Shown: positions 3,635 through 21,683 of the stretch, in pieces
How positions within the stretch are numbered: position 1 is the stretch's first letter
How the letters are laid out: each line of letters starts with the position of its first letter
Assembly: GCF_003269295.1 (NCBI RefSeq)
Contig: NZ_QLTT01000004.1
Span: 558,001-622,000, forward strand
Source: Lentzea atacamensis
Lineage (GTDB): Bacteria > Actinomycetota > Actinomycetes > Mycobacteriales > Pseudonocardiaceae
Direction of reading: 5' to 3'
DNA: 64,000 bases
Position numbers and translations under genes: made by a program
Notes under the pieces: model-generated
The model's database searches: none
What the model saw: only the letters and a program-made list of their open reading frames with translations
What the model was told of the DNA's origin: nothing

Positions 3635-3648
3635 GAGGGAGGAAAGTC

Positions 3649-6600: not shown

Positions 6601-6867
6601 ATCTCCGACGTCTGGAGCGAGGTGCTCCGGATGGACCGGATCGGCGCCGACGACAACTTCTTCGACCTCGGCGGCAATTCGGTGCTGCTGGTGAAGGCGC
6701 GGAGCAGGTTGGCGGAGGTGTTCGCGCGCGAGGTTCCGACGGTCACGTTGTTCACGTACCCGACCGTGCGGGCGCTCGCGGCCCATTTCGACGGGAGTGG
6801 CGAGGTGGAGGCGCGGAGCGTCGCCGGTGGCAGAAAGGCCTTGCTGGCGCGGGGGAGGACGTCGTGA
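3649..6867 (+). CDS. NRPS module C-A-PCP (NRPS2)
   Basis: 1072-aa synthetase. Condensation motif HHIVCDG at about 164-170, adenylation core YTSGSTGKPKG near 629, IYGPTE, YRTGDL, NGKLDHRALP, and carrier motif LGGNSVLL with Ser1011. I prefer the GTG at 3649 over one at 3631 because a GGGAGG Shine-Dalgarno sits 6-8 bases before it. The hand-derived pocket code is D-V-A-C-M-G-I-I-W, which matches no code I know well, so the substrate is left open. The C-terminal tail after the carrier domain (SGEVEARSVAGG..) is copied in a tandem repeat at the junction with the PKS gene. Immediately downstream of NRPS1, same operon. Confidence 0.93.
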   Translation: MQDVLRRLKALDPERRAAVFAQLAERGEEFNVHPVSSGQRRLWLLDQLHPGSPVYNVPYAFRLRGPVDSAALGAALLSLGRRHEVLRTVFLDLDGDPRQVILPEPQFTLVVTEVSVPASERDAFASARAAEAAREPFDLAEGPLLRAELVVFSATDALLLVTMHHIVCDGWSTQLLFAEWRAAYESADLGPAPTQYLDFSRWQTEWLAGPDGARLEEYWTSQLAGVPPVLELPADHPRPAVMKMRGGAESFAWPASLKERLDSFCLAERVTPFMVLLTAWNVLLHRYSGADDLVVGTNVANRRAEIENAVGFFVNTVAIRTRVSPSVSFRSLLHQVRDTTLAAQQHQDLPFERVVEALAPPRSTAHQPVIQTIVGMEDSQHEIFSLPGVSVSRVASHSGTAKWDLELGVTSTSGGIAGLLEYDSALYEPATVRRLLGHLETLLFAGLDDPSCPVGRLTMITAAERAQLVDEWNPPVPPRLDDVLVHELMEASADRTPDAVALVFEDQSLTYRELEARANQLAHQLRSSGIGRGDLVGISLPRSLDLVVAQQGVLKSGAAYVPLDPEYPADRLAYMVADSGLRVVVTLAAFASRFPSADTLSLDAVDLSAFATDRPQRTVSPDDLAYVIYTSGSTGKPKGAMLPHRGVVNLADELARMLGIGPGNRMLQFASFSFDVSVADIMVTLGSGATVVLAPQHDLQPGPDLARTINAQRVDTACLPPTVLRLTDPASVPGLRTLMAGGEACPDEVAALWAPGRRFINIYGPTEASIWITSAECDGTESPLPIGRPIAGNTAYVLDENREPLPIGVPGELYLGGVQVARGYLNRPELTSERFVADPFTGGRLYRTGDLARFLPDGRIEFLRRMDNQIKLRGYRIELGEIQTAVSRHPSVRAAVVIAREDVPGDVRLVAYAVAAPGCRIDAAELRTHLRRGLPEYMVPSAFVEVPTIPRNPNGKLDHRALPKLESVRAERVVVPAGTRTERAISDVWSEVLRMDRIGADDNFFDLGGNSVLLVKARSRLAEVFAREVPTVTLFTYPTVRALAAHFDGSGEVEARSVAGGRKALLARGRTS

Positions 6868-6938
6868 GCGGTGAGGTTGAGAGGCGGGCCGTCGCCGGCG
6901 GCAGGAAGGCTTTGCTGGCAAGGGGGAGGAAGTCGTGA
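6796..6938 (+). repeat. 71-bp tandem duplication at NRPS2/PKS junction
   Basis: Two similar copies (about 6796-6867 and 6867-6938) each carry the last codons of NRPS2, a GGGGGAGGA ribosome-binding site and an overlapping GTGA stop/start. The copies diverge at scattered bases, many of them silent, so the duplication is not brand new. The period of 71 is one less than a multiple of three, which exactly compensates the stop/start overlap. Confidence 0.85.
6864..6938 (+). CDS. 24-codon mini-ORF made by junction duplication
   Basis: A GTG overlapping the NRPS2 stop opens a frame of 24 codons ending in a TGA that overlaps the PKS start. The encoded peptide (VSGEVERRAVAGGRKALL..) repeats the NRPS2 C-terminal tail almost residue for residue. 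It is preceded by the GGGGGAGGA motif of the first copy, so ribosomes finishing NRPS2 could translate it and then re-initiate on the PKS. Whether it is expressed or merely passive is unknown; no function is implied. Confidence 0.5.
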   Translation: MSGEVERRAVAGGRKALLARGRKS

Positions 6939-9907
6939 CCGAGTACACCGGATTCGAGATCGCTGTAGTGGGTATGGCGGGCCGTTTCCCCGGTGCGTCC
7001 ACTGTGGATGATTTCTGGGACAACGTGCTCGCCGGAGAGGCCGGTGTCCGCCGCTTCACCGACGAGGAGCTCGACGCCGCGGGCGTCACCGCCGAGCGGC
7101 GTGCCGAGCCTGGTTTCGTGCCGATGGGCGGTGCGCTGGAAGGCATCGAGCTCTTCGACGCGAAGCTGTTCGGCTACAGCCCTCGCGACGCGGCCGTGCT
7201 GGACCCGCAGCAGCGCGTCTTCCTGGAGACCGCCTGGCACGCGCTGGAACACGCCGGCCACCTGGGCGGCAAGGACGTCGTCGGTGTCTACGCCTCGGCC
7301 AGCATCGACACGTACCTGCTGCGCCACCTGCTGAACAACCCGGCCGTGCCAGGCGGTCTGCAGCCGCTCGACCTGCTGCTGGCCAACGACAAGGACACGC
7401 TCGCCAGCCGGGTCGCCTACCACCTCGACCTGACCGGTCCCGCGATCACCGTGCAGACGGCGTGCTCGTCGTCGCTGGTGACGATCCACGTGGCCTGCCA
7501 GGCCCTGCTGGGCCGCGACTGCGACATCGCCCTGGCTGGCGGCGTGTCCATCCGCCCACCCGTGCACGAGGGCTATCAGCACACCGAGGGCGGCATCCTC
7601 GCCGCCGACGGCCGTTGCATGCCGTTCGACGCCGACGCGCACGGCGTGGTCGCGGGCAACGGCGTCGCCGCCGTGGTGCTGCGCCGCCTGGAAGACGCCC
7701 TGGCCGACGGCGACACCATCCACGCCGTCGTGAAGGGCACCGCCGTCAACAACGACGGCGCGGACAAGGTCGGCTTCACCGCGCCGAGCGTCAACGGCCA
7801 GGCGCGGGTGATCAGGGCGGCTCACGAGCTGTCCGAAGTGGACTCTTCGACCATCGGCTACGTCGAGGCGCACGGCACCGGCACGGCGCTCGGCGACCCG
7901 ATCGAGGTGGCGGCGCTGACCAAGGCGTTCGTCAACCCGCCATCGGCCTGTGCTCTGGGTTCGGTCAAGGCGTTGATCGGGCACCTGGACGCGGCGGCGG
8001 GTGTCGCCGGGTTCGTCAAGGCCTCGCTCGCGGTCAGGGACGGGGTGGTGCCGCCGAGCCCGTACTTCACCGCGCCCAACCCCGAGACCGGCCTGGAGAA
8101 CAGCCCGTTCTTCGTCAACCGCGAGGCACAGGAGTGGCCGGGACCGCGACCCCGGCGGGCAGGCATCAGCGGCTTCGGCATGGGCGGGACCAACGCGCAC
8201 GCCGTGCTGGAGGAGCCGCCGTCACCGGAGCCGATGGGGCCGGGCAGATCACGGCAGCTGCTGGTGTTGTCGGCGGGGTCCGAGGAGGCGTTGGGGGAGA
8301 GCAGGAAGCGGCTGGCCGAGCACCTCACAGCTGACCACGTGTCACTCGCCGACGTCGCCCACACCCTGCGCACCGGCCGCCGCACCAACCTCCCGCACCG
8401 CCTGGCCGTGGTGGCCGCTGACCCTGCCGAGGCCGCCTCCGTGCTGGCCTCCGCTTGGACCGGTTCCGGCGACCGCCGGGACGTGATGTTCCTGTTCCCC
8501 GGCCAGGGTTCGCAGTACGCGGGCATGGCCGAGCAGCTCGACCGCGAGGAGCCGGTGTTCCGCGCCGCGCTGGACGAGTGCGCCGTGCTGCTGCCGTTCG
8601 ACCTGCGCGACGTGCTGGCCGACGCGGAACGCCTCACGCGGACGAGGTACACCCAGCCCGCGCTGTTCGCGGTCGAGTACTCGCTCGCGAAGCTCTGGGA
8701 GCACTGGGGTGTGCGGCCTGCCGCGATGCTCGGGCACAGCGTCGGCGAGTACGTGGCCGCCTGCCTGGCAGGGGTCTTCTCGCTGCCGGACGCGGTGAAG
8801 CTGATCGCGGCGCGCGGCGAGCTGATGGACCGGTTGCCGGGCGGCGCGATGCTCTCGGTGTCGCTGGGCGCGGACGAACTGGCGCTGCCGGCCGACGTGC
8901 ACCTCGCCGCCAGCAACGCTCCGGCCCTGAGCACGGTCGCCGGGACGTTCGAGGCGGTGGAACGGTTCGAGGCGCAGCTGAGCGTCACCAGCCGGCGGCT
9001 GCACACGTCGCACGCGTTCCACTCGGCGATGATCGACCCGATGCTGGCCGAGTTCGCCTCGAAGGTGAGCGAGGTCGAGCTGCGGGAGCCGCGGATTCCC
9101 TTCGTCTCCAACGTGTCCGGCACCTGGATCACCAGTGGCGAGGCGACCGATCCCGGTTACTGGGTGCGGCACGCCCGCGAAGCGGTCCGGTTCAGCGAAG
9201 GTCTGCGCACGTTGCTCGCCGAGGGGCCGGTCAACCTGCTGGAGGTCGGGCCCGGCAACGTGCTCACGACGCTGGCGAGGCAGCACGACCTCGCAGGTGG
9301 TGGCCACGCGGCGTTCGGGTCGCTGCGGCACCCGCGGGAGGACAAGCACGACCTGGAGACCACCCTGTCCACGCTCGGCAGGCTGTGGATCGCCGGGGTG
9401 CCGGTGGACCTCGCGGCTGTGACGGCGGACGAGCGGAGGCGGCGGGTTCCGCTACCGGGGTATCCGTTCGCGCGGGAGCGGCACTGGGTGGACCTCCCCG
9501 GCACAGCAGCGCCACAGGTCGTGGTGAACGAGGAACGCGTCAGCGCGGCGGAACCTGCGGTCACCGGCGATCTGGCCGTGATCACCGGCATCTGGCAGGA
9601 GCTGCTCGGCATCCCCCGGATCAGCCCGCACGACGACTACTTCGAACTCGGCGGCCACTCGCTGCTCGCGACCCAGATCCTCGCGCGCATCACGGCCGAG
9701 CTCGGCGTGAGCCTCCCCGCGGGCGCGATCTTCGAGGCGCCGACTCCTGCCCGCCTGGTCGCGCTGGTGGAGCAGCAGCGCGGCGAGCACCAGGAAGACG
9801 ACGACGAGTTCGCCCGGCTGCTCGCCGAGATCCGCGACATGTCACCGGAAGAGCTGCGGGCCGAACTGGACCGCGAGCGGGACGCCCAGGAGATCTCCCA
9901 GTCATGA
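6935..9907 (+). CDS. Type I PKS module KS-AT-ACP
   Basis: 990-aa ketosynthase-acyltransferase-carrier protein that adds one C2 unit. KS about residues 5-420 with active Cys177 (TACSSSL), EAHGTGT and GSVKALIGHLDAA histidines. AT about 510-810 with FPGQGSQ, GHSVGEY (Ser602) and the HAFH motif near 693, which by established AT rules indicates malonyl-CoA. Carrier domain LGGHSLLA with Ser909. No ketoreductase, dehydratase or enoylreductase is present, so a beta-keto group is expected. The GTG start overlaps the mini-ORF stop and the TGA overlaps the ATG of the next NRPS. The C-terminal acidic tail resembles a docking region. Confidence 0.93.
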   Translation: MTEYTGFEIAVVGMAGRFPGASTVDDFWDNVLAGEAGVRRFTDEELDAAGVTAERRAEPGFVPMGGALEGIELFDAKLFGYSPRDAAVLDPQQRVFLETAWHALEHAGHLGGKDVVGVYASASIDTYLLRHLLNNPAVPGGLQPLDLLLANDKDTLASRVAYHLDLTGPAITVQTACSSSLVTIHVACQALLGRDCDIALAGGVSIRPPVHEGYQHTEGGILAADGRCMPFDADAHGVVAGNGVAAVVLRRLEDALADGDTIHAVVKGTAVNNDGADKVGFTAPSVNGQARVIRAAHELSEVDSSTIGYVEAHGTGTALGDPIEVAALTKAFVNPPSACALGSVKALIGHLDAAAGVAGFVKASLAVRDGVVPPSPYFTAPNPETGLENSPFFVNREAQEWPGPRPRRAGISGFGMGGTNAHAVLEEPPSPEPMGPGRSRQLLVLSAGSEEALGESRKRLAEHLTADHVSLADVAHTLRTGRRTNLPHRLAVVAADPAEAASVLASAWTGSGDRRDVMFLFPGQGSQYAGMAEQLDREEPVFRAALDECAVLLPFDLRDVLADAERLTRTRYTQPALFAVEYSLAKLWEHWGVRPAAMLGHSVGEYVAACLAGVFSLPDAVKLIAARGELMDRLPGGAMLSVSLGADELALPADVHLAASNAPALSTVAGTFEAVERFEAQLSVTSRRLHTSHAFHSAMIDPMLAEFASKVSEVELREPRIPFVSNVSGTWITSGEATDPGYWVRHAREAVRFSEGLRTLLAEGPVNLLEVGPGNVLTTLARQHDLAGGGHAAFGSLRHPREDKHDLETTLSTLGRLWIAGVPVDLAAVTADERRRRVPLPGYPFARERHWVDLPGTAAPQVVVNEERVSAAEPAVTGDLAVITGIWQELLGIPRISPHDDYFELGGHSLLATQILARITAELGVSLPAGAIFEAPTPARLVALVEQQRGEHQEDDDEFARLLAEIRDMSPEELRAELDRERDAQEISQS

Positions 9908-12900
9908 CCGACCACCTGACCAGCTCACTCACCGAGGAACAGCGGCTGCTGCTCGAACTGCGGCTCCGCAACGCCGACCGCTCGCAGCCCGTGTCCTTCA
10001 CCCAGGAACAGCTGTGGTTCCTCGACCGCCTCGACCCCGGCAACCCCGCCTACGCCATCCCGTTCGGGCTGCGGCTGACCGGGCCGCTCGACCGCACGGC
10101 ACTCGAACTGGCCGTCGGCCGGGTCGTTGACCGGCACTCCGCGCTGCGGACCACGTTCTTCGAACGCGACGGCGAGCTGCGGCAACGAGTGCGCGACAAC
10201 GTGTCCATCGCCATCGAGGTCACCGACCTGACCGCGAACCCTGAGCGCGCGCAGGAAGTCGCCCTCGAGCACGCCCGGCACGTGTTCGACCTGAGCACGG
10301 GACCGCTGGTGGCGTTCCGGCTCGTCGTGCTCGGCGACGAGGAGCACCTGCTGCTGGTGACCGCCCACCACATCGTGTTCGACGCGGCGTCGGCCGAGGT
10401 GTTCGGCAAGGATCTCGCGGCGTACTACGGCGGCGAGACGCTGCCCGAGCTGACCACGTCGTTCGGCCGGCACGCGGCAGCCGAACGGCGCAGGCTCACA
10501 GCGGGCGTCATGGACGAGCACCTCGAGTACTGGCGGGCCAGGCTCGCCGGCAGCCCCGCCCGCTCCACCGTGCCGTCCGACCTGCCACGACCGGCGATCC
10601 AGACGCACACCGGCGGACGGCACCACTTCGTCGTCCCCGCGGACCTCACCGGGAAGCTGGCCGCGCGTGCCCGCGAGCAGGGTGTGTCGCTGAACGCGGT
10701 GGTGCTGAGCGGGTTCGCCGCACTGCTCGGCCAGACGGCGGGCCAGGACCGGGTGCTGCTCGGCATGCCGGTCGGCGGCCGCGGCAGGACCGAGCTGGAG
10801 CCGATGATCGGCTCGCTGGCGAACATGCTGGTGCTGCGGGTTGATCTGGACGGCACCACGAGCGACGTGATCCGGGGTACGCACAAGGCGATCAGCGAGG
10901 CGTACACCCACCAGGACGCGCCGTACGCACGTGTCGTCGAGGCGGTCGACCCGCCGCGCGACCCCAGCCAGAACCCGTTGTTCCAGGCCATGCTCAGCCT
11001 CACCGAGGCACCCGCGACCCGTACGGTGGACGGCGTCGAGTTCAGCCCGTTCGAGATCGACAACGGTCTCACCGACTTCGACCTGTTCGTCATCCTGTCC
11101 AGAGCGGACGGTGAGCTGCGCGGAGTTCTCGGCTACAACGCCGATCTGTACCTCGCCGACACCGTCGCCGAGCTCGGCGAGCAGTTCCTCGCGATCCTGA
11201 CCGGCATCGTGGAGGACCGGCCCCTGCGGCCCAGGAACCGGATCTCCGTCGCGGCCACCTTCACCGCGGATCCCATCAGGGAGCCGCTGGACGTCCTGAA
11301 CGGTGTGCTGCGCCTGCCGGTCGACGTGGAACTGGCGCCGTACCAGCAGATCGTGCAGCACCTGCTGCACGGCGACAACGGCAGGCTCGCCGACGTCGTG
11401 CTGCTGCGCTGGGAAGACTGGTTGCGGCACGGTGACGCCCTGGACGCGGCCTGGCAGGACCTGGAAATGGCGATCACCGCCTACCGGCAGAAGTCGGCCG
11501 CGCCGCTGCACCTCGTCGTGTGCCCGTCCGAGCAGACGTTCGGCCACCTCGACGACAAGCTGGCCGTGCTCGCGGACCGGACCGACGGTGTGCACGCCTT
11601 CTGGTTCGCCGACTGGGCCGAAGCCCTGCCGGTCAGCGTCACGTTCGATCCCCAGGCCGACAAGCTCGGCCACGTCCCGTACACCCCGGAGATGTTCGCC
11701 GCGCTGGCGATCCTCCTCACGAAGAAGCTCAACCCCGACGCTCATCGCCTGCACCTGCTGGACTCCGCGCTCGGCGTCCCGGCGAAACTGGCCGAACGCG
11801 CCGCACCCGCTGTGCACGGCGTCGCGATCGACACCCCGCCGGTCGCCCCGCGCAACGACACCGAACGACGGCTCGCCAAGGTGTGGCGGGAGGTGCTCAA
11901 GCTCGACGAGGTCGGCGTCACGCACGACTTCTTCGCGCTGGGCGGCCACTCCCTGCTCGCGACGCAGCTGCTGTCCAAGGTGCACGCCGAGTTCGGTGTC
12001 GACGTGTCGCTGCACGCGCTGTTCACCCACCCGACGATCGAGGCGCTGGCGGCACTCGTCGAGGAGCCGCAGGAGAGCGGGCAGCCGCTGCTGCCGGTCT
12101 CCCGCTCCGGTGACCTCGGCCTGTCCGCCATCCAGCAGCGCATGTGGGCCGCCACCCAGCTCGACACGACCACGACCCGCATGAACACCACGTTCGCGGT
12201 CCGGTTGCGCGGCGAGCTGGACGTCGAGACGTTGAAGCGAGCGCTCGCGGACGTGGTGAGCAGGCACGAGATCCTGCGCACGACCTTCACCGAGCGCGAC
12301 GGCAAGCCGGCCATGGTCGTCCGCGACGGCATGGACTGCTGGCTCCCCGAGGCCAACGGCTCGCCGGACGAGTTCCTGCTGGAGCACACGAACCACGTGT
12401 ACGACCTGGAAAACGGCCCGCTGCTGCGCGCCAGGCTCGTGCGCACGGGCGAGAACGAGCACCACCTGCTGCTCGGCATGCACCACATCATCTGCGACAA
12501 CACGTCGTGGGGCGTGCTGCTCGCGGAGCTGTCCGCCGGGTACGCCGGCCGCGACCTGCCGGAGCTCGAGGTCCAGTACGCGGACTACGCGGCCTGGCAA
12601 CAGGAACTGCTCACCGAGGAAGCCCTCGAACCGCACCTGACGTACTGGCGCAACCGCCTCGCCGACGCGCCCGCGCAGCTGGAGACTCCCCCGGAACGCC
12701 CGGAACGCAACGAGACAGCCCGCGCTTCGTCCGTGGTGCCTCAGAGCGTCTCAGCGGCGTTGAAGGAGCTGGCCCGCGCCGAGGGCAGCACCCCGTTCGC
12801 CACGCTGCTCGCGGCCTACGCGGTGGTGCTGTACCGGCGCAGCGGGCAGCCGGACGTCGTGCTGAGCGTGCCCCAGCAGGGCAGGCCGCGGCCAGAGGTC

Positions 12901-15645
12901 GAGCACCTCATCGGCTGCTTCACCGACCTGCTGCCGATCCGCGCCGACCTCGGCGGCCGGCTGACGTTCCGGCAGATCCTGCAGCGCGTCCACCGCGCGA
13001 TGGTCGACGGCTACCAGCACGCCGACGTGCCGTTCTCCAGCGTGGCGCACGTGCTGCCACGTCAGAAGGGGCGCCACCCCGTCTACCAGTGCGCGTTCAA
13101 CTACGCGGACCTGCCCGACGAGGCGATGACCTGGCCGGGCCTGGAGCTGGAGCCGCTGGAGGTGCCGGTCACCAGCCTCGACTTCGACCTGTTCCTCACG
13201 CTGACCACGGAACACGGCGAGCTGGCCGCGACCCTGGAGTACAGCGCCGACCTGCTCACCACCGACGGCGCGGACGAACTGCTCACGGAGTACGTCACGC
13301 AGCTGCGAGACCTCGTCGCCGAGCCGGACGAGCCGGTCGTCGTCGAGCGGTCCACTGTGGAGGGGAAGCCGCTCAGCATCGTGTCGTCGCGACCGGTCGA
13401 CGGTGCGCTGACGGTGTTGTCGTCGTGGGCGGACAAGCTGGACCTGCCGCTCACCGTGCGCACGACGCCGGCCGGTCAGGTCCTGCGTCCGTTGCTGGAC
13501 CCGGAAGCCGGGCTCGACGGGGTGGAAGGGGAGACGACCGCGCTGGTGCTCCGGTGGGAGGACCTGTTCGAAGGTGGCGTCGGCCCGTTCGAAAACGCCT
13601 TCGCCCGGCTGTGCGCCGCGGTCGGACGGTGGACCGAGCGGACCGGTGGCTCGCTGGCGGTGCTGACCACGTCCGAGCGCGAGGAGAAGCCGTGGCCCGG
13701 CGTGTTCGGTCACGCGGCCGATCGTCTGGCCCGGCGTTTCCCTGCCGTGCGCGTCATCGACCTGCTGACCGCCGAGGGCGACCCGGACGTCGTGCTGGGC
13801 ACCGCACTCGCCCGGCTGGTGCACGCGGGAGAACTGCCGGCGGAGGAGCAGCGCACGACGGAGGCTCCGCGCACCGACGAGGAACGCGCGCTGGCGGCCG
13901 TCTGGCAGGAAGTCCTGAAGCTGCCAGAGGTCGGTGTGCACGACGACTTCTTCGAGCTCGGTGGCGACTCCATGACCGCCATTCAGGTCGTGTGGCTGGC
14001 GAACCAGGCGGGCATCAGGTTCACGCCCGCCCAGCTCACGGCCAAGCGGACCATCGCGGAACTGCTGCGCGTGCCCATGACCGAGGAGCAGCAAACGCTT
14101 GCGGCCGTGTGGCGCGAGGTGCTGAAGCTGCCAGAGGTCGGTGTGCACGACGACTTCTTCGAGCTCGGTGGCGACTCCATGACCGCGATCCAGGTCGTGT
14201 GGCTGGCGAACCAGGCGGGCATCAGGTTCACGCCCGCCCAGCTGACCGCGAAGCGAACCATCGCCGAGCTGTGTGCCGGAAACGCACCGCAGCAGATGGC
14301 CGACCAGGGACCCGTGGAGGGTGACTTCCCGGCCACCGGCGCCCAGCGCTGGTTCTTCGAGGCGCTGGCCACGTCGATGAAGACCCCGAGCCACTTCAAC
14401 CACCCGTACTACCTGCGGCTGCGCCGCCAGGCCACCCCGCAACAGCTCGAACAGGCCGTCAACGCGCTGGTCGCGCACCACGACGGGATGCGCCTGCGGT
14501 TCCGCCGCGAGGGAATCGACTGGCACGCCTCGCACGGCCCGGTCGAGGGCGCGATGCCGTTCGTGTCGTTCGACGTGTCGGACGTTCCGGCGGATCGGCG
14601 CGAGCAGGCGATCGAGGACCTGCTCAACGAGGTCCACCCGACGCTCGACCTCGCGCGGGGGCCGCTGGCCAAGGTAGTCCACTTCGGACTCGGCGACGAT
14701 GAACCCGACCGCGTGATGGTCATCTGCCACCACCTGGTGACCGACGGCGTCTCGCGCAGCCTGATCCTGGAGGACTTCCAGAACGCGCTGCGTCAGGTGC
14801 TCGAAGGGCAGAAGGCCGACCTCGGGCCGAAGACCACGTCGTTCAAGGACTGGGCGCTCCGGCTCGACGAGTACGCCCGCGGCCCTGAGCCGTTGCGGGA
14901 GCTGGAGTACTGGGAGGGGCAGGCGGCCGGCACCGAGGAGCTCACGCCCGACCTGCCGGGCCGGAACACGTTCGGTGTCATGCAGGACATCCACACGACG
15001 ATCGACGCCGAGACCACCGCGCGCCTGCGCGACCTGGCCAAGGCGCACCAGGTCGGCATCAGCGACCTGCTGATCTGGGCGTCCGTGCGGATGGCCGCCG
15101 ACCGCTCCGGCAGTCCCGAGTGGACGATCGCGACCACCGGGCACGGCAGGGAGGCGCTGTTCGACGACCTCGACCTGTCCCGCACGGTCGGCTGGTTCCA
15201 GGTCATGTACCCGATCCGGCTGACGCTCCCGGACGACAGCGACGTCAACGCGATCAAGTCGCTGGCCGGCCAGCTCAAGCAGGTGCCGGTCAACGGCATC
15301 GGCTACGGCCTGCTCCGGTACAGCAACCCGGATCCCGCGATCAGGCGGCGGCTGGAGACCCCGAACCCGCAGCTGACCGTCAACTACGCCGGCTCGTTCG
15401 GCTTCACCGACCTCTCCAGCGCCGACGAGCTGTTCGAGCTCTGCGACCGGGAGCTGGGTGTCCTGCAGGACGAGGGGACGGTGTGGCCGGGACGGATCGA
15501 CGTCGTCGGATCGCTGGTGAACGGCCAGATCCGCATCGAGATGAACTACGGCACCGAGATGTACCTGCCGGAAACCGCGCGCCGAATGCTCGGTGACATC
15601 GAAGAGCTGCTCCGGCAGCTCGTCTCACAGAAGAGGACGAAGTAA
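9904..15645 (+). CDS. NRPS without A domains: C-X-PCP-C-X-PCP-PCP-E-like
   Basis: 1913-aa protein; ATG overlaps the PKS stop (an open frame runs upstream to about 8455 but is PKS antiframe). C1 about residues 30-440, motif HHIVFDA (155-161); X1 about 445-640; PCP1 Ser683; C2 about 735-1140, motif HHIICDN (860-866); X2 about 1158-1315; PCP2 Ser1356 and PCP3 Ser1425 (LGGDSMTA, near-identical copies); epimerization-like domain about 1473-1909 with HHLVTDG, GHGRE, RTVGWF, NGIGYG and VNYAGSF. No adenylation motif occurs. X1 resembles the N-terminal domain of FkbH proteins (AATFTADP, APYQQIVQHL, LRWEDW, GHVPYTPEM) and stops where the HAD motif should start; X2 is shorter and more decayed. Both C domains have a changed last motif residue (A, N instead of G). 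The E-like domain has Thr1745 where the catalytic Glu of EGHGRE sits. A carrier-to-carrier assembly of ACP-borne units is inferred. Confidence 0.85.
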   Translation: MTDHLTSSLTEEQRLLLELRLRNADRSQPVSFTQEQLWFLDRLDPGNPAYAIPFGLRLTGPLDRTALELAVGRVVDRHSALRTTFFERDGELRQRVRDNVSIAIEVTDLTANPERAQEVALEHARHVFDLSTGPLVAFRLVVLGDEEHLLLVTAHHIVFDAASAEVFGKDLAAYYGGETLPELTTSFGRHAAAERRRLTAGVMDEHLEYWRARLAGSPARSTVPSDLPRPAIQTHTGGRHHFVVPADLTGKLAARAREQGVSLNAVVLSGFAALLGQTAGQDRVLLGMPVGGRGRTELEPMIGSLANMLVLRVDLDGTTSDVIRGTHKAISEAYTHQDAPYARVVEAVDPPRDPSQNPLFQAMLSLTEAPATRTVDGVEFSPFEIDNGLTDFDLFVILSRADGELRGVLGYNADLYLADTVAELGEQFLAILTGIVEDRPLRPRNRISVAATFTADPIREPLDVLNGVLRLPVDVELAPYQQIVQHLLHGDNGRLADVVLLRWEDWLRHGDALDAAWQDLEMAITAYRQKSAAPLHLVVCPSEQTFGHLDDKLAVLADRTDGVHAFWFADWAEALPVSVTFDPQADKLGHVPYTPEMFAALAILLTKKLNPDAHRLHLLDSALGVPAKLAERAAPAVHGVAIDTPPVAPRNDTERRLAKVWREVLKLDEVGVTHDFFALGGHSLLATQLLSKVHAEFGVDVSLHALFTHPTIEALAALVEEPQESGQPLLPVSRSGDLGLSAIQQRMWAATQLDTTTTRMNTTFAVRLRGELDVETLKRALADVVSRHEILRTTFTERDGKPAMVVRDGMDCWLPEANGSPDEFLLEHTNHVYDLENGPLLRARLVRTGENEHHLLLGMHHIICDNTSWGVLLAELSAGYAGRDLPELEVQYADYAAWQQELLTEEALEPHLTYWRNRLADAPAQLETPPERPERNETARASSVVPQSVSAALKELARAEGSTPFATLLAAYAVVLYRRSGQPDVVLSVPQQGRPRPEVEHLIGCFTDLLPIRADLGGRLTFRQILQRVHRAMVDGYQHADVPFSSVAHVLPRQKGRHPVYQCAFNYADLPDEAMTWPGLELEPLEVPVTSLDFDLFLTLTTEHGELAATLEYSADLLTTDGADELLTEYVTQLRDLVAEPDEPVVVERSTVEGKPLSIVSSRPVDGALTVLSSWADKLDLPLTVRTTPAGQVLRPLLDPEAGLDGVEGETTALVLRWEDLFEGGVGPFENAFARLCAAVGRWTERTGGSLAVLTTSEREEKPWPGVFGHAADRLARRFPAVRVIDLLTAEGDPDVVLGTALARLVHAGELPAEEQRTTEAPRTDEERALAAVWQEVLKLPEVGVHDDFFELGGDSMTAIQVVWLANQAGIRFTPAQLTAKRTIAELLRVPMTEEQQTLAAVWREVLKLPEVGVHDDFFELGGDSMTAIQVVWLANQAGIRFTPAQLTAKRTIAELCAGNAPQQMADQGPVEGDFPATGAQRWFFEALATSMKTPSHFNHPYYLRLRRQATPQQLEQAVNALVAHHDGMRLRFRREGIDWHASHGPVEGAMPFVSFDVSDVPADRREQAIEDLLNEVHPTLDLARGPLAKVVHFGLGDDEPDRVMVICHHLVTDGVSRSLILEDFQNALRQVLEGQKADLGPKTTSFKDWALRLDEYARGPEPLRELEYWEGQAAGTEELTPDLPGRNTFGVMQDIHTTIDAETTARLRDLAKAHQVGISDLLIWASVRMAADRSGSPEWTIATTGHGREALFDDLDLSRTVGWFQVMYPIRLTLPDDSDVNAIKSLAGQLKQVPVNGIGYGLLRYSNPDPAIRRRLETPNPQLTVNYAGSFGFTDLSSADELFELCDRELGVLQDEGTVWPGRIDVVGSLVNGQIRIEMNYGTEMYLPETARRMLGDIEELLRQLVSQKRTK
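13891..14271 (+). repeat. 207-bp in-frame tandem duplication of a PCP domain
   Basis: Copies 13891-14064 and 14098-14271 encode nearly identical carrier domains (VLKLPEVGVHDDFFELGGDS in both) separated by an 11-codon linker. Differences are mostly silent third positions, so the duplication is fairly recent or held by gene conversion. Both keep the phosphopantetheine Ser and the LGGDS form usual for carriers in front of E domains. Confidence 0.92.
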
Positions 15646-17003
15646 TGCCCAAGCCTTCGGGATTCGGCGCGTTCACGATCATGTGGGTGGGGCAGCTGCT
15701 GTCCGCACTCGGCACCCGCATGACGAACTTCGCGCTCAGCATCTGGGTGTGGCAGCACACCGGTTCGGCCACCGCGATGGCGCTGATGATGTTCTGCGGC
15801 TTCGGCTCGACGGTGTTGTTCAGCCCGATCGCCGGCAGCCTGATCGACCGGCTGAGCCGCAAGACGTCGATCATCATCAGCGAGATCGGGTCGATCTTCG
15901 TCACGTTCATCCTGCTGGCGTTGTTCCTCACGGACTCGACGCAGCTGTGGCACCTCTACCTCGTCAACGTGCTGACCGGCGCGCTGCTCGCGATCCAGGG
16001 GCCGGCGTTCGGGGCGACCATCGCGCTGATGATGGAGAAGGGGAAGTTCCTGCGGGCCAACGCGATGATGTGGTCGGTCAAGAGCTTCCCGGTGATCTTC
16101 GCGCCCGCGTTCGCCGCGACCCTGCTGGGGCTGACCGGCATCAAGCTGATCCTGCTGGTCGACGGGCTCACCTACGTGGTCGCGATCGTCTCGGTGCTCG
16201 TGGTGCACATCCCGCCGGTGCCGGGGCAGAACCGCGAGAAGAGCACCTTCTGGCAGGACTGCGTGTTCGGGTTCCGCTACATCGTCGAACGCCCGCCGCT
16301 GCTGGCCGTGCAGATCGTGCTGTTCTCCATCAGCCTCCTGGCCGCGCTGGCGTGGGCGCTGATCGTCCCGCTGGTGCTGGCCCGCACGATGGGCGACGAG
16401 GGCACGCTGGGCCTGGTGCAGAGCATCGGCGCCGTCGGCGGTGTGCTGGGCGGTGTCCTGCTGGGTGTCATGAAGCCGCCGCGGCGCAAGATGCTCGTGG
16501 TGCTCGGCGCGATCCTGGTGTTCAGCATCATCGGCCGGATCGTCTACGGCGTCGGTGACGGCCTGATCGCGTGGGCCGCGGCGATGTTCTTCGTCGAGCT
16601 GACGATCCCGTTCATCGACGGCCTCGCCCAGACGATCTGGCAGGAGAAGGTCGATCCCGCCGTGCAGGGCCGTGTGTTCTCCGCCCGCAACTTCTTCGAG
16701 AACCTCTCGGTGCCGATCGGTTTCGCGGCCGCGGGTCCGCTGGTGGACAAGGTGCTGGAGCCGGCGATGCGCGGGGACACCGCGCTGGCGCACACGTTCG
16801 GCTGGATGGTCGGCACCGGACCGGGCGCCGGCATCGGCCTGCTGTTCGTGATCGTCGGTGTGCTCGGTGCCGGTGTCGGCGTGGCGGGTTTCCTCAGCCG
16901 CAACGTCCGTGAGGTCGAGATCCTCGTGCCCGACCACGAGCCCGAGCCCGAGCCCGAGAACAAGCCCGTTGAACGCGTCGCCCAGCCCGCGCTGGCCGAC
17001 TGA
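15645..17003 (+). CDS. MFS exporter, EntS-like
   Basis: 452-aa polytopic membrane protein of the MFS_3 (enterobactin exporter EntS-like) group, with about 12 hydrophobic segments and the loop motif DRLSRKT after TM2. The ATG overlaps the TAA of the NRPS (TAATG), tying it to the assembly line. It most likely exports the peptide-polyketide product. The C-terminus ends in an acidic Pro-Glu run (EPEPEPENKP) predicted to be cytosolic. The EntS resemblance alone does not prove that the product is a siderophore. Confidence 0.88.
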   Translation: MPKPSGFGAFTIMWVGQLLSALGTRMTNFALSIWVWQHTGSATAMALMMFCGFGSTVLFSPIAGSLIDRLSRKTSIIISEIGSIFVTFILLALFLTDSTQLWHLYLVNVLTGALLAIQGPAFGATIALMMEKGKFLRANAMMWSVKSFPVIFAPAFAATLLGLTGIKLILLVDGLTYVVAIVSVLVVHIPPVPGQNREKSTFWQDCVFGFRYIVERPPLLAVQIVLFSISLLAALAWALIVPLVLARTMGDEGTLGLVQSIGAVGGVLGGVLLGVMKPPRRKMLVVLGAILVFSIIGRIVYGVGDGLIAWAAAMFFVELTIPFIDGLAQTIWQEKVDPAVQGRVFSARNFFENLSVPIGFAAAGPLVDKVLEPAMRGDTALAHTFGWMVGTGPGAGIGLLFVIVGVLGAGVGVAGFLSRNVREVEILVPDHEPEPEPENKPVERVAQPALAD

Positions 17004-17015
17004 GAAGGGGGAGAG

Positions 17016-17201
17016 ATGAACACCGCGCTCTACCGGGTCGTGGTCAACGACGAGGAGCAGTACGCGCTCTGGCCCGCCCACAAGGACAACGCGCCCGGCT
17101 GGCGCGACGCCGGGGTCAGCGGGGCCAAGGAGGAGTGCCTGGAGCACATCGGCCGCGTGTGGACGGACATGCGCCCGCTCAGCCTGCGGGGGCGGTCATG
17201 A
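17016..17201 (+). CDS. MbtH-like protein
   Basis: 61-aa MbtH family protein with the family signature [21 protein letters not shown] and [10 protein letters not shown]. MbtH proteins bind adenylation domains and aid their folding and activity, so the likely partners are the A domains of NRPS1 and NRPS2. GGGGGAGAG precedes the ATG. Its stop overlaps the ATG of the following ACP. Confidence 0.95.
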
Positions 17202-17425
17202 CGTTCGCGGACGTGGTCGCCAGCGCGCTGGACGTCGACCCGGCGCACGTCACCGACGAAGCCGGGAGGGACTCGCTGGCGAGCTGGACCAGCATGCGGC
17301 ACATCCAGCTGATCGTGACGCTGGAGGAGGCCTACGGGCTGTCCTTCGACTACGAGGAGATCGCCGACGCGCGGACCGTCCGGGACGTCCGCGACGTGTT
17401 GCGCGCCAAGGGGGTCGAGGTCTGA
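17198..17425 (+). CDS. Acyl carrier protein 1
   Basis: 75-aa free-standing carrier protein. The phosphopantetheine site is D-S26-L (RDSLASW), followed by the usual hydrophobic helix II ([13 protein letters not shown]). It lies between mbtH and an FkbH-like gene with overlapping stop/start codons on both sides. Its DSLASWTS pattern is very like the second ACP at 21676 (DSLANWTS), which pairs with the intact FkbH. I infer that each ACP serves the FkbH-type protein next to it. Confidence 0.9.
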
Positions 17426-18819
17426 TGAGCGACGACCTCGCGGCGGTGCGCACCCGCTGGCAGGAGATCGCCAGAACCGGCGAGCGGCCGGTGATCTCGA
17501 TCGGCTTCCTGGCGAGCTACACGATCGACCCGGTGCTGCCCTATCTCGGAGTGGCACTGCACGACGCCGGCCTGCCCGCGTCGTGCCACACCGGGCCGTA
17601 CAACCAGATCGTGCAGCAGTGCCTGGACGACAGCTCACCGAAGACGGACGTTCTCGTTGTGGCGCCGCGGTTCGAGGAGCTGGGCGACGACCTGATGACC
17701 GCGGTCGACGCCGCTCTCTCGGCGGCGCGGCGGCGTGGATCGTTCCTGGTGATCGTGTTGCCTGCGGTGCCTGAGGAGCGCGCGTACGGACACCTGGACG
17801 ACGGTAGGGCCGCGGGTACGGCTGCCACGGCTCATGCGGTGCGCGAAGAGGTTCGTGCGCTGCTGGCGGACCGGCCGGACGCGTGGGTGGTGGACGCCGA
17901 GCAGGCTGTTCGCGCGGTCGGCACCTCCAAGGCGCACCACGCCGCCATGTTCAAGTTCGCGAAGATCCCCTACACCGAGGCGGTGTTCCACGAGCTGGCC
18001 GCACAGCTGGCCGGTGTGTTGCGCGCGGTGTACGGCGCGACCCCGCGAGTGGTGGTGCTCGACGGCGACTCGTTGCAGGGGATGAAGAACCCGAGCGAGT
18101 TCGACGGGCAGCTCGAGCAGATCCACGCGTCGGGCGCACGGCTGGCGTTGCGCGCCGGTCCGGAGAACGTGGACGCGTTGTGGGAGAAGCTCTCCGCGGA
18201 GCTGCCGGTGTTCACGACCGAGCTCGTGGACGCGTCGGTGACGGACTGCCGTCCGGTGCAGGAGCAGCTGGCGGCGCTCGCCCAGGACATGGGCGTACCC
18301 ACCGAGTCCGCGGTGCTGCTCTCGTGGCCGGTCGACCTTCGTCGCTCAGGCCTGCTCGACCGGCTCCCGGCGTTCGAGACGGCTCCGCGCCGGGATCGGC
18401 GGCAGGTGGAGCGCACCGTGTCGCTGGCCGACTTCGTGGCAGGGCTGAACGTCGAGGTCGACCTCCAGCCCGTCGGTCCGGACTCGGCGGCCAAGGTCGT
18501 CGAGGTCGTGTCCAGGGCCAAGGACTTCACGCTCGGCACCGAGCAGCTCGACCTGACCGAACCGGGCCGCGAGGTGTTCGCGGTGCGCGTGCGCGACCGG
18601 TTCGGCGACTACGGCATCAGCGGCGCCGTCGCCATCAGCGGGGAGGGCGTGGTGGACGTTTTCTCGCTGTCCTGCGTCGTGCTCGGCAAGGGCGTTCAGG
18701 ACCTCGTCCTGCGGCAGCTGCCCGGCGCAGCCGTCTTCCGCTACCGCAAGACACCGCACAACCAGATCACCGCCGCGTTCCTGAAGGACGCCGGGGTAGT
18801 TGTTGAGGAGATCTCGTGA
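17425..18819 (+). CDS. FkbH-like protein with degenerate HAD motif
   Basis: 464 aa; co-linear with FkbH but shorter. N-terminal SGNH-like part about residues 20-205 (GFLASYTIDPVL, GPYNQIVQQCL, KIPYTEAVF); HAD part starts VVVLDGDSLQG with Asp213 and Asp215, but the canonical DxDNT/LWGG is replaced by DGDS/LQG; C-terminal GNAT-like part (RDRFGDYGISG, VFSLSCVVLGKG) matches the end of FkbH. The family makes glyceryl-ACP from 1,3-bisphosphoglycerate and needs the HAD active site for phosphate removal. Here phosphatase chemistry is doubtful; a changed substrate or a non-catalytic carrier-binding role is inferred. ATG overlaps the ACP1 stop. Confidence 0.75.
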   Translation: MSDDLAAVRTRWQEIARTGERPVISIGFLASYTIDPVLPYLGVALHDAGLPASCHTGPYNQIVQQCLDDSSPKTDVLVVAPRFEELGDDLMTAVDAALSAARRRGSFLVIVLPAVPEERAYGHLDDGRAAGTAATAHAVREEVRALLADRPDAWVVDAEQAVRAVGTSKAHHAAMFKFAKIPYTEAVFHELAAQLAGVLRAVYGATPRVVVLDGDSLQGMKNPSEFDGQLEQIHASGARLALRAGPENVDALWEKLSAELPVFTTELVDASVTDCRPVQEQLAALAQDMGVPTESAVLLSWPVDLRRSGLLDRLPAFETAPRRDRRQVERTVSLADFVAGLNVEVDLQPVGPDSAAKVVEVVSRAKDFTLGTEQLDLTEPGREVFAVRVRDRFGDYGISGAVAISGEGVVDVFSLSCVVLGKGVQDLVLRQLPGAAVFRYRKTPHNQITAAFLKDAGVVVEEIS

Positions 18820-19826
18820 CTGTCCACTTCGGAGTCGTGGCGCTCGGCCACGTGCTCGGCGAGCCGGTCGACGTGGCCTCGGCCGCCGCTGACTACACCA
18901 GCGACGTCGACCGCGTGCTCGGCTGGGGCTACCGGACGTTCCACCGCGCTGCGGACGGTGTCGGGCTCACCGACCTGGCCGCAGAGGCGGGCGCGAAAGC
19001 ACTGGCGAACGCCGGCGTGCGGCCGGACGAGGTCGATCTCGTCGTGCTGGCGCTGTCCGACCTGTCCGAGCACCTGTACTGGGACGCGGCCGGTGCCACC
19101 CAGGCGAAGATCGGCGCGCACGGATCCGAGGCCGTGCTGCTGACCCAGGCGTGCGGCGGGGGAGTGGCGGCGTTCGACATCGTCGCAGGCAAGTTCGCCA
19201 CACACCCCGACTACCGGACGGCGCTGATCATCGGCGCCAACCGCGTCTGCGAGACGTACTGGAACCGGATGGAGATCAACACCAGCATCTTCTCCGACGG
19301 GGCCGCCGCGGCAGTGGTCCAGCGCGACCACCCGCACCGGCGGTGGATCAACACCGAGATCATCAGCGACGGCCGGTACGCCGACTTCATGATGATGGAC
19401 GTCGGTGCCGCGGCACGTCCGTTCGCCGATGGGGAACCGGTGGGCGTGAAGAGCCCGCAGAAGCGGCTGGAGGAGTTCTTCGCGGGCGACATCCGCAAGA
19501 TGTTCGAGTTCGTGTCGACGATCCGCACCAACAACCACGAGGTCGTGCGCCGGGCCTGCAAACGCGCCGGTATCACGCCTTCCGACGTCCGCAGGCTGCT
19601 GCACCTGCACGACAGCGCGCCGGCTCTCACGTTGCTGGCGAAGGACCTCGACATGGGTCTGGAGTGGACGAACGCCTCCGTCGCCGCCGCACACGGACAC
19701 GTCGGCTGCGCGGACCAGCTGATGTCGCTGGAGCTTGTTTCGGACGAACTCGCCAAGGGCGATGTCGTGGCACTGACCAGCACGGCCAGCGGCATGCACT
19801 GGCTCTGCACGCTGCTGGAAATCTGA
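18816..19826 (+). CDS. KASIII (FabH)-like ketosynthase/acyltransferase
   Basis: 336-aa thiolase-fold protein of the ketoacyl-ACP synthase III group. The active Cys113 is in TQACGGG. The usual His-Gln-Ala-Asn segment reads HLHDSAP, and the usual Gly-Asn-Thr segment reads AHGHVGC, so the standard Cys-His-Asn triad is altered. Such variants include acyl transferases and the FabH-like enzymes that join glyceryl-ACP to a ketoacyl chain in tetronate pathways. Location between two FkbH-type genes and two ACPs points to handling of an ACP-bound C3 unit. GTG start overlaps the upstream stop. Confidence 0.8.
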   Translation: MTVHFGVVALGHVLGEPVDVASAAADYTSDVDRVLGWGYRTFHRAADGVGLTDLAAEAGAKALANAGVRPDEVDLVVLALSDLSEHLYWDAAGATQAKIGAHGSEAVLLTQACGGGVAAFDIVAGKFATHPDYRTALIIGANRVCETYWNRMEINTSIFSDGAAAAVVQRDHPHRRWINTEIISDGRYADFMMMDVGAAARPFADGEPVGVKSPQKRLEEFFAGDIRKMFEFVSTIRTNNHEVVRRACKRAGITPSDVRRLLHLHDSAPALTLLAKDLDMGLEWTNASVAAAHGHVGCADQLMSLELVSDELAKGDVVALTSTASGMHWLCTLLEI

Positions 19827-19835: not shown

Positions 19836-21683
19836 ATGGACGTCCTGGCGAGAATCCGCCAACTCACCAAGCCCGGTGCCGCCGCCGACCCGGCGCTGCT
19901 GGCCGATCTGGCTTCCTTGACGGACCTTCCGGCGTTGCTCGAAGCCGGCCGGCTGCTCGCGAAGGTACCCGCTTCGCTGCTGGGGAAGCTGAAGCCGTTG
20001 CGGGTGGCCATCACCGGCACGTTCACCGCGTCCGGTGTGGCGCCGCTGCTGCGGGTCGCCCTGCTGGGCAAGGGAATCGCGCCCGAGATCCACGTGTCCG
20101 GCTTCGACCAGCTGGCCGTCGACCTGAGCAGTCCGTCGTCACCGCTCGCGGAGTTCGACCCGCAGGTGACCCTGTGCCTGCTGCACGACGACTGGTTCGT
20201 GCCGCGTGACTGGGACCCCGCCGACCCGGAGGGCTTCAGCGGGGCGGTGCGCTCACGCTGGTCGATGTTCGACAACCTCGTCGGCGGGTTCACCGAACGG
20301 TCCGGCAGCGCGGTTCTGGTGCACACCGTTCCGTTGTCGCCCATCGAGATCCGCGGAGTCGTGGCGTTCGACGGCCGTGCCGCGCTGGGTCGCGCGTGGC
20401 GTGACCTGAACAGCGACCTGCTCGGCATGGCGCTGCGCCGTGACCAGGTCCACGCGCTGGACCTGGAGGCCTACCTGGTGGACGCTCCTGCCCGGCTGCG
20501 CGACGAGCGGCTGTACCGCTTCGCCAGTGCGGCCTGGACGCCCGAGGTCGAGCACGTCTACGCCGCGGAGGCCGCGAACTTCTGCCGCGCGTTCATGGGC
20601 ATGGCCAAGAAGGTTCTCGTGCTCGACCTGGACAACACGCTGTGGGGTGGCGTGGTCGGTGACGACGGCCCGAGCGGCATCCAGATCGGCCCGATGTACC
20701 CCGGCAACGCGTTCCGCGAGATGCAGCGCCGCGCGGTCTCGTTGCGCCGGCAGGGCGTCGTGCTGGCGTTGTGCAGCAAGAACGAGGCCGCGATCGTCGA
20801 CCAGGTCCTGAACGAGCACCCGGACCTGGTGATCCGGCCCGCCGACATCGCGGCCCGCGCGGTCAACTGGCAGCCGAAGGACCAGAACATCCGGGCGCTC
20901 GCGGCTCAGCTGAACCTCGGCCTGGACAGCTTCGTCTTCGCCGACGACAGCACGTTCGAGACCGAGCTCGTCCGCGGCTCGATCCCCGAGGTCACCGTCG
21001 TGCACCTGAACGGCGACCCGGCCGATCACGTCGCCGCCGTGCAGCGGGCTGGTTCGTTCGACGTGCTGACGACGACGGCCACCGACCGCTCCCGCACCGA
21101 GCTGTACAAGGCCCGCGCCGAACGCACGTCGTTCGCCGAGTCGTTCGGCACGGTGGACGACTACCTGCGCAGCCTGGAGATCACCGTGACGGTGCGGGAG
21201 GCCGACGAGTTCAGCCTGCCGCGGCTGGTCCAGCTCGGCCAGCGCACCAACCAGTTCAACATGATCGGCCGCTCGCACCCCGAGGCCCGGACGCGCGAAA
21301 TGGCCGCTTCCGACGACTGCCTGGTGCTGGTCTTCGAGGTGGCGGACCGGTTCGGTGCCCAGGGAATCGTCGGCGGTGTCTGGGTTTCTCGTCGGGACGA
21401 CCACTGGCTCATCGAGAACTTCGTGATGAGCTGCCGCGTCTTCACCCGCGGCGTCGAGCACACCGTCGTCCAGCACATCGTCGACCGCGCCGCGTCTGCA
21501 GGGGCATCGCGCCTGGAGGCCGACTTCGCCGCCACGGACCGCAACAAGGCCGCGGCCGCGTTCTACCCGGAGGCCGGCTTTTCGCTGACCGATGGCCGTT
21601 ACACACTGCCGGTCGTGCCGCGGCCGCAGATCAGTCCTGATTGGACCACTCTCGTCGTCGACATGGAGCACGCTGATGTCTGA
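19836..21683 (+). CDS. fkbH: FkbH: glyceryl-ACP synthase/phosphatase
   Basis: 615-aa FkbH family enzyme. N-terminal SGNH-like domain about residues 45-250 (AITGTFTASGV, FDQLAVDL, LLHDDWF); HAD domain from about 260 with the intact motif Asp264-Leu-Asp266-Asn-Thr-LWGG; later HAD elements LCSKNE and VFADDSTFE; C-terminal GNAT-like domain with VADRFGAQGIVGG. The family takes 1,3-bisphosphoglycerate, removes phosphate and loads glycerate on an ACP. GGGGGATC precedes the ATG. The 3' end overlaps ACP2 by 8 bases, the likely carrier. No methoxymalonate dehydrogenases or O-methyltransferase follow, so the glyceryl unit may be used as such or converted by other enzymes. Confidence 0.92.
   Translation: MDVLARIRQLTKPGAAADPALLADLASLTDLPALLEAGRLLAKVPASLLGKLKPLRVAITGTFTASGVAPLLRVALLGKGIAPEIHVSGFDQLAVDLSSPSSPLAEFDPQVTLCLLHDDWFVPRDWDPADPEGFSGAVRSRWSMFDNLVGGFTERSGSAVLVHTVPLSPIEIRGVVAFDGRAALGRAWRDLNSDLLGMALRRDQVHALDLEAYLVDAPARLRDERLYRFASAAWTPEVEHVYAAEAANFCRAFMGMAKKVLVLDLDNTLWGGVVGDDGPSGIQIGPMYPGNAFREMQRRAVSLRRQGVVLALCSKNEAAIVDQVLNEHPDLVIRPADIAARAVNWQPKDQNIRALAAQLNLGLDSFVFADDSTFETELVRGSIPEVTVVHLNGDPADHVAAVQRAGSFDVLTTTATDRSRTELYKARAERTSFAESFGTVDDYLRSLEITVTVREADEFSLPRLVQLGQRTNQFNMIGRSHPEARTREMAASDDCLVLVFEVADRFGAQGIVGGVWVSRRDDHWLIENFVMSCRVFTRGVEHTVVQHIVDRAASAGASRLEADFAATDRNKAAAAFYPEAGFSLTDGRYTLPVVPRPQISPDWTTLVVDMEHADV

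Follow-up and report, generated by a model that had tools for sequence, protein, structure and literature searches.

Modules of nonribosomal peptide synthetases (NRPSs) in which FkbH-type sequences stand where an adenylation (A) domain would be expected are known from several pathways. The malleicyprol synthetase BurF, published in 2025, has a C-NEX-T module, in which a segment of 244 aa (NEX) between the condensation (C) and thiolation (T) domains showed Foldseek similarity to the N-terminal extension of FkbH-like proteins (PMC12304814). BurJ and BurH load this module in trans; according to the authors, the other FkbH parts may be lost and NEX may help BurH, and they could only infer the role of the extension (PMC12304814). 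C-FkbH-T modules for glycerate are described for vioprolide, cystomanamide and corramycin, and a C-FkbH arrangement for foxicin (PMC8949500, PMC10099666, PMC5318452). Finally, the dnacin and naphthyridinomycin-type clusters combine an inactive A domain with a route of an E1/E2 pair, an acyl carrier protein (ACP) and a KASIII enzyme via hydroxyethyl- or glycolyl-ACP (PMC7570522). The cassette genes are NapB/C/D/E for naphthyridinomycin, QncL/M/N for quinocarcin and DinQ/S/T/U for dnacin (PMC7570522, PMC6335953), and SclQ1-4 form the E1/E2-ACP cassette of scleric acid (PMC6335953). The present analysis concerns a stretch of 64,000 nucleotides from Lentzea atacamensis (contig NZ_QLTT01000004.1, positions 558,001 to 622,000; hereafter the window), which encodes an NRPS without A domain, named X-NRPS, with the domain order C1-X1-PCP1-C2-X2-PCP2-PCP3-E. 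X1 and X2 share homology with the N-terminal domain (N-domain) of FkbH proteins.

Set beside BurF by description, X-NRPS shares the A-less C-x-T architecture, in which x is FkbH-N-like and lacks the phosphatase and acyltransferase parts; two-component trans loading of an alpha-hydroxy acid and an ester-forming C domain would be further likenesses, which for X-NRPS are proposed only. BurF differs in having one such module, a reductase end and loading by BurJ and BurH with ATP, whereas the gene clusters with X-NRPS (X-clusters) have two tandem modules, a probable supply by FkbH2/ACP2/KAS3 or E1/E2, and the pseudo-enzyme FkbH1 in addition. In the C-FkbH-T systems FkbH also replaces the A domain and the vioprolide C domain is ester-forming, but FkbH is described there as loading glycerate in cis, whereas X1 and X2 lack the HAD part. 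The Nap, Qnc, Din and Scl systems likewise use an E1/E2 pair to obtain a short acyl-ACP, the KASIII protein DinQ has the same length as KAS3 of the window (336 aa) and the A domain of DinL is inactive; in contrast, their dead domain is an A domain and not an FkbH remnant, and no E1/E2 was found in the window. FkbH-like proteins in general (TIGR01686, PDB 3slr) share the N-terminal family, whereas the HAD and GNAT parts are missing in X1 and X2. Judged by its sequence, X-NRPS is a variant of the C-NEX-T kind, and the feature itself is well supported. The original prediction, made from the letters of the window, had regarded this assembly mode as undescribed, which falls in part because the trans-loaded C-NEX-T module of BurF, next to complete C-FkbH-T modules, is in print (PMC12304814, PMC8949500, PMC10099666). 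In those parts of the open-licence full-text literature that we covered, no report was found of NEX modules in tandem, of the pairing with FkbH1, of the graded erosion or of two supply cassettes.

FkbH N-domains between condensation and carrier domains

Pfam recognised three Condensation and three PP-binding stretches in X-NRPS and no AMP-binding match anywhere in it, which agrees with the predicted 1913-aa NRPS with three peptidyl carrier proteins (PCPs) and no A-domain motif. The two C domains of the prediction also stood; it had passed over the third Condensation stretch, a C-terminal epimerase-type (E) domain matching TIGR01720 with 68.9 bits, below the cut-off of 74.2. PCP3 repeats PCP2 in tandem, the two being 87 % identical at the DNA level across 201 bases, and three LGGxS sites are present in all six Lentzea X-NRPS proteins.

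Searched alone, X1 and X2 gave no match in Pfam or NCBIfam, and TIGR01686 matched neither X1 nor X2 nor any other part of X-NRPS. The relationship emerged from profile comparisons with hhalign, in which 15 X1 rows and 15 X2 rows were aligned with N-domains taken from 16 complete FkbH proteins encoded at other loci. X1 matched with a probability of 100 % (E 1.5e-42, 175 columns) and X2 with 99.5 % (E 2.5e-22, 167 columns), while column-shuffled profiles stayed at or below 0.3 % and ten control domains at or below 4 %, barring short overlaps with flanking PCP sequence (49 and 64 % over 12-14 columns) and C sequence (42 % over 20 columns). The matches to the FkbH2 N-domain family of the X-clusters were weaker (91 and 90 %), and the N-domain of FkbH1 also matched the intact FkbH N-domains, with clean controls. 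Three loci (L048, L061, L065) had been dropped from the N-domain set for wrong frame, truncation or insertion, and L067 from a second, larger tree and from the residue table. The resemblance in A-domain position, which the original prediction had read from motifs and had proposed to check by profiles, is thereby borne out.

The residue table points in the same direction. X1 retains F453, Q482, L487, L500, R502, D505, P541, D582, P592 and T594, each in 18-19 of the 19 rows; at these ten positions, 13-15 of 15 intact FkbH N-domains show conservation. X1 ends ahead of the HAD motif, and regular expressions for HAD motif I, CSKN and DD found nothing in its 19 rows, as expected from the earlier description of a segment that keeps the FkbH N motifs and stops where HAD begins. 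X2 has lost most of the conserved set, of which a leucine (19/19), an arginine (18/19), an aspartate (19/19) and an alanine (19/19) persist; the LRWED core, which the original prediction took to be the only part kept, is retained. HAD motif I was found in 1 of 19 X2 rows, CSKN and DD in none. Compared with the described classes, X1 and X2 thus have the N-terminal extension of FkbH-type proteins (TIGR01686) and lack their HAD catalytic domain (DxDxT, DD); the BurF-like arrangement, with this extension from FkbH placed between C and T and no A domain, is found in 19 clusters, and a complete in-cis FkbH as in the vioprolide-type C-FkbH-T modules is missing, HAD being absent from X1 and X2.

Other identities of the two segments were discarded. 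A truncated A domain, which would have spoken against the prediction, is contradicted by the missing AMP-binding match and by a profile similarity to A-domain halves of at most 0.4 %, and an ordinary linker is ruled out for X1 by its FkbH homology and by selection. A profile of the intact FkbH N plus HAD parts matches PDB 3slr (BF1531) across both parts, the N part weakly (whole E 1e-40), and sequence searches gave no credible PDB relative for X1 alone or for an N-domain-only profile. For SGNH catalysis, nothing credible came from these PDB searches; the label SGNH-like for the FkbH N-domain is a presumed one.

Among six Lentzea orthologues, the ratio of nonsynonymous to synonymous substitution rates (dN/dS) was 0.22 for C1, 0.25 for C2, 0.29 for X1 and 0.36 for X2, compared with 0.42 for the HAD remnant and 0.27 for the N-domain of FkbH1; C1, C2, PCP and E are under purifying selection (0.10-0.25). 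X1 is under purifying selection too; its value is near those of the C domains, so that it is nearly as constrained as a catalytic domain, while the constraint on X2 is weaker.

Across all clusters, X1 (19 rows) forms one clade with support of 95/94 (98/81 in the larger tree) and X2 (19 rows) another with 98/85 (91/86), and C1 and C2 are sister clades (11 of the 19 proteins; SH-aLRT 95, no bootstrap). The simplest reading of these groupings, and a likely one on the basis of the trees, is a single module duplication before the clusters diverged. The tails of five long X1 members match HAD profiles (96 %, E 2e-9, 52 columns), those of ten long X2 members reach only 39 % and the middle part of FkbH1 87 %, with controls below 1 % except for an FkbH1 segment overlapping its own GNAT part (93 %). 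Because the long X1 members keep HAD-like tails, X1 and X2 have likely decayed from catalytic C-FkbH-PCP modules. On contig 1 of genome G045, a C-FkbH domain lies about 7 kb from an intact FkbH1; it keeps LDGDG, and the Cys and DD motifs are absent by eye. This pair may represent an intermediate, in which an active FkbH works in trans while the cis copy fails.

Conserved gene set and the pseudo-enzyme FkbH1

The neighbourhood search for C-X-PCP modules that had been proposed with the prediction was run and gave X-NRPS (C-X1-PCP-C-X2-PCP) in 19 clusters, spread over 18 genomes, with the domain order kept throughout. These are the window and five other Lentzea-type orthologues (L032-L036), nine further clusters of the same family (G045, G092, G101, G154, G132, G072, G247, G225 and a second cluster of G250, G250b) and four of the same order (G590, G619, G705, G395). 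Close relatives, with 78-80 % X1 identity, occur in a further five genomes of the genus, including Lentzea waywayandensis and L. albida; G696, in which the X matches are split across two contigs and which was left out of the 19, is probably a 20th case. Searches with X1 matched 32 of 390 genomes of the family, 22 of 397 of the order and 17 of 394 of the class, complete FkbH proteins included, and absences weigh little here because about seven candidates were scored per genome. Beyond the order, the best match (6.6e-35) lies within the range of complete FkbH proteins.

That free FkbH and ACP genes share the operon with X-NRPS was correctly foreseen; they are FkbH1, FkbH2, ACP1 and ACP2, joined by the KASIII-like KAS3. 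ACP1, FkbH1 and an MFS transporter gene are found near X-NRPS in all 19 clusters, an MbtH match in 16, FkbH2 together with KAS3 in 12 and ACP2 in 11 (the L035 stretch stops inside FkbH2). A 2-oxoacid-dehydrogenase-like set of E1alpha, E1beta and E2 accompanies X-NRPS in 11 of the 19, none of them the window, where no E1/E2 pair was found in the entire 64 kb; the stretches L032-L036 end near ACP2, and the scan for E1/E2 reached that far. Six of the 11 have neither FkbH2 nor KAS3 nearby, four have both cassettes and G225 has KAS3 alone; a lipoyl motif was detected by regular expression in 8 of 10 E2 proteins checked. A polyketide synthase (PKS) module lies directly upstream of X-NRPS, with at most an MbtH gene between, in nine clusters, upstream with an intervening A-domain gene in six, downstream on the opposite strand in G590 and G619, and was not found in the stretches read from G705 and G395.

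Of the two free FkbH proteins, FkbH1 no longer has intact HAD motifs, a point against the original prediction as worded. It reaches 47.7 bits with TIGR01686 (cut-off 146.65), in its C-terminal part only, and all three HAD motifs are absent by regular expression in 19 of 21 FkbH1 proteins; a motif-I-like string is retained in G395, and the free FkbH1 of the second G045 cluster, on contig 1, keeps DxDNT, CSKN and DD. The FkbH1 clade (21 rows, 100/99) has this G045 protein at its base, with the other 20 rows united by 96/85. Among the 390 family genomes, with four candidates scored per genome, 18 FkbH1-type matches cover the N-domain at E <=1e-20, namely 15 at X-clusters, the one on G045 contig 1, the decayed one in G294 and one in G214, where FkbH1 adjoins E1alpha/E1beta and no X-NRPS occurs within the 40 kb read. 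The G294 locus (L054) is a decayed X-cluster remnant, in which genes that look transposase-like by eye surround an X segment, ACP1, E1alpha, E1beta, E2 and FkbH1; it had looked like a stand-alone NEX protein and, being decayed, was not used.

FkbH2 retains DxDNT and DD in all 12 clusters that have it. KAS3 of the window is adjoined by FkbH2 and ACP2, i.e., it stands beside an enzyme that would make an acyl-ACP. Outside the X-clusters, 15 of 20 listed KAS3 relatives were read, of which seven adjoin E1/E2 plus ACP and eight a complete FkbH, and FkbH1 stood beside none of the 15; in this position next to an acyl-ACP-making enzyme, KAS3 of the window and of all 15 loci can be likened by description to NapE and DinQ. 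The terminal E domain is present in all 12 FkbH2-bearing clusters and in two of the seven without FkbH2, a difference that counts as one event because the five clusters lacking E are one clade. This pattern would fit a chiral glyceryl unit in the FkbH2 clusters and an achiral unit in those without E.

Proposed trans loading and alternative explanations

We put the probability at about 60 % that X1 and X2 are FkbH remnants whose PCPs are charged in trans with alpha-hydroxyacyl units, NEX together with FkbH1 and ACP1 serving as platform. The ancestor would have been a C-FkbH-PCP module in which FkbH itself placed a short hydroxy acid on the PCP. After duplication of this module, before the 19 known clusters diverged, the catalytic HAD part would have been lost, leaving the extension, which X1 has preserved better than X2. 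Charging of the PCPs would now occur in trans: they would receive a short alpha-hydroxyacyl unit first held on a free ACP, supplied by FkbH2 as glyceryl on ACP2 and/or, in sister clusters, made by the E1/E2 pair. KAS3, where present, would be the probable carrier-to-carrier transferase, the extension and the FkbH1/ACP1 pair might act as a docking or hand-over platform, much as a vestigial AT domain does in trans-AT PKSs, and C1 and C2 would link the unit to the growing chain, an ester being the probable bond. It is plausible that the X domains recruit or hand over ACP-borne units to the PCPs, as first proposed, although the restriction to C3 units was too narrow: since seven of the 19 clusters have the E1/E2 set and no nearby FkbH2, another small acyl unit is to be expected there. 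A more far-reaching version, which we hold only tentatively, is an HAD-independent trans-FkbH system, in which NEX and FkbH1 hand a short hydroxyacyl unit from ACP1 to the PCPs, with FkbH2 or E1/E2 exchangeable upstream and KASIII inessential; if true, its logic would parallel that of trans-AT PKSs.

Several observations weigh against trans loading on a platform of FkbH remnants. Four genomes (G101, G154, G072, G132) contain no KAS3 relative at E 1e-20 anywhere, which rules out KASIII as the transfer enzyme in all clusters; each of them has a complete FkbH elsewhere. At L162-L164, in the same genus, an A-less C-PCP protein without X stands beside KAS3, complete FkbH/FkbH2 and ACP/ACP2, and X is therefore dispensable for trans loading in general; by their gene content these loci would be a second, simpler type of trans-loaded module. 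The cysteine of CSKN is replaced by alanine in FkbH2 of L032, L033 and L034 (3 of 12; the window, L035 and L036 keep it), which weakens glyceryl transfer there. C2 has lost HHxxxD in 4 of 19 proteins. Concerning ancestry, X1 of G225 and X2 of G101, G154, G132, G247, G072 and G250b gave no BLAST match to their own window seeds and were taken by position, X2 is eroded to a degree at which a mere linker is conceivable, and the placement of X1 and X2 beside NRPS-embedded FkbH (87/91 in one tree) is unstable in the larger tree. In G045, the C-NEX-HAD and GNAT-PCP parts of the supposed intermediate are two overlapping open reading frames (ORFs), and the tree places its N-domain apart from X1 and X2. 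As a mark of active FkbH, the CSKN cysteine was itself abandoned, given the FkbH2 alanines and a CS[KRA]N string in only 6 of 16 FkbH proteins of other loci.

Some of these points would favour X1 and X2 still being catalytic, with the FkbH N-domain as an acyltransferase from ACP1 to the PCPs, FkbH1 as partner and neither HAD nor KASIII needed. The four genomes without KAS3 relative, which nevertheless have X-NRPS, ACP1, FkbH1 and E1/E2, the ten conserved X1 residues and the constant company of FkbH1 and ACP1 are all compatible with it; however, no catalytic residue set is recognisable, F, Q, R, D, P and T may have been conserved for structural reasons, X2 has lost most of the conserved residues in the same position, and the BurF authors likewise report that they could identify no residues of functional importance in NEX (PMC12304814). 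We regard it as unlikely, and equally so the opposite view of pure relics or spacers that merely set the distance between C and PCP. Relics would explain the loss of HAD, the erosion of X2 in dN/dS and residues, and the existence of C-PCP modules without X at L162-L164, yet X1 evolves at a dN/dS near that of the C domains and below that of the FkbH1 HAD remnant, and its conserved residues persist across 19 clusters. Still less probable is a charging of PCP1 and PCP2 with amino acids by a trans-acting A domain, reused from nrpsA or nrpsB, the FkbH cassette then making, e.g., a starter unit. The operon indeed holds two A domains and an MbtH gene, and capreomycin assembly is reported to use a trans-iterative A domain (PMC12400406), but what lies between C and PCP here derives from FkbH and bears no trace of an A domain. 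That X-NRPS is inactive or skipped, as the lost C2 motif in four proteins might suggest, is very improbable, given that C1, C2, PCP and E evolve under purifying selection in Lentzea, that C1 keeps the HHxxxD motif in 18 of 19 proteins and that the domain order is the same in all clusters. The X-cluster set makes the role of NEX directly testable, as 19 natural clusters keep the extension without the enzyme, one related cluster has an FkbH1 that is still intact and separate, and A-less modules that lack the extension offer a contrast. It also yields an annotation rule for A-less modules, whose substrate no A domain reveals.

Gene map of the window and further FkbH arrangements

The operon extends from nrpsA (443) to the gene of a glyoxalase-fold protein (22322). 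Genes for a BTAD-type regulator and a thioesterase, presumably of type II, lie directly upstream in the same genome. The pocket residues of nrpsA look Val-like by eye under the specificity code, and the small gene behind the transporter is presumably MbtH-like. ACP1 has no Pfam match at 1e-4.

Table 1. Features of the X-NRPS operon in window coordinates.
Feature	Position	Strand	Basis
nrpsA, NRPS module C-A-PCP	443..3634	+	Pfam Condensation, AMP-binding, PP-binding
nrpsB, NRPS module C-A-PCP	3631..6867	+	Pfam
PKS module KS-AT-ACP	6935..9907	+	Pfam, synteny
X-NRPS, no A domain, C1-X1-PCP1-C2-X2-PCP2-PCP3-E, 1913 aa	9904..15645	+	ORF, Pfam/NCBIfam
C1 domain, HHIVFDA motif	9946..11238	+	HHxxxD in 18/19 proteins
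X1, FkbH N-terminal domain (NEX) without HAD; ATFTADP, PYQQ, LRWEDW, GHVPYT	11242..11823	+	hhalign, residue table, dN/dS
PCP1, LGGHS	11851..12081	+	Pfam, motif alignment
C2 domain, HHIICDN motif	12106..13338	+	HHxxxD in 15/19 proteins; sister clade of C1
X2, more degenerate FkbH N-terminal domain, LRWED core retained	13351..13833	+	hhalign, dN/dS
PCP2 and PCP3 in tandem, LGGDS, near-copies of one another	13867..14274	+	ORF, DNA identity
E, terminal epimerase-type domain, HHLVTDG	14281..15618	+	TIGR01720 68.9 bits, below cut-off 74.2
MFS transporter	15645..17003	+	Pfam MFS_1
MbtH-like protein (presumed)	17016..17201	+	ORF, synteny; no NCBIfam match at E 0.001
ACP1, free carrier protein, likely ATG start 17198	17198..17425	+	Weak NCBIfam ACP matches, synteny in 19/19 clusters
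FkbH1, free FkbH-like, N-domain and GNAT-like end, HAD motifs not intact	17425..18819	+	TIGR01686, alignment, tree
KAS3, KASIII-like, probable acyl-transfer enzyme	18816..19826	+	Pfam/NCBIfam, alignment, neighbours of relatives
FkbH2, complete FkbH with DLDNTL, ALCSKN, ADD	19836..21683	+	TIGR01686 299 bits, PDB 3slr relative, motif table
ACP2, free carrier protein, likely start 21676	21676..21918	+	Pfam PP-binding
Glyoxalase/VOC-fold protein	21915..22322	+	Pfam Glyoxalase_4

In the tree of C domains, those of L162 and L163 are placed beside C1 and C2 (SH-aLRT 85). A 3744-aa NRPS of the same genus (L066, 4163-15394) carries C, FkbH, glyoxalase and PCP within one chain; this fusion and the free glyoxalase-fold gene by ACP2 in the window hint at a functional link. 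In the PKS FkbH domains of L051 (7232-11632) and L053 (7364-10945), an FkbM-type methyltransferase (PF05050) is inserted into the N-domain, whose halves match on either side of the insert (Pfam on L053 only), and L065 looks similar by eye. Furthermore, ORFs of 2169 and 2384 aa at L045 and L047 fuse FkbH to a short-chain dehydrogenase/reductase (SDR), a MaoC-like domain, a PCP, an aldehyde dehydrogenase and an iron-alcohol dehydrogenase (Pfam on L045 only).

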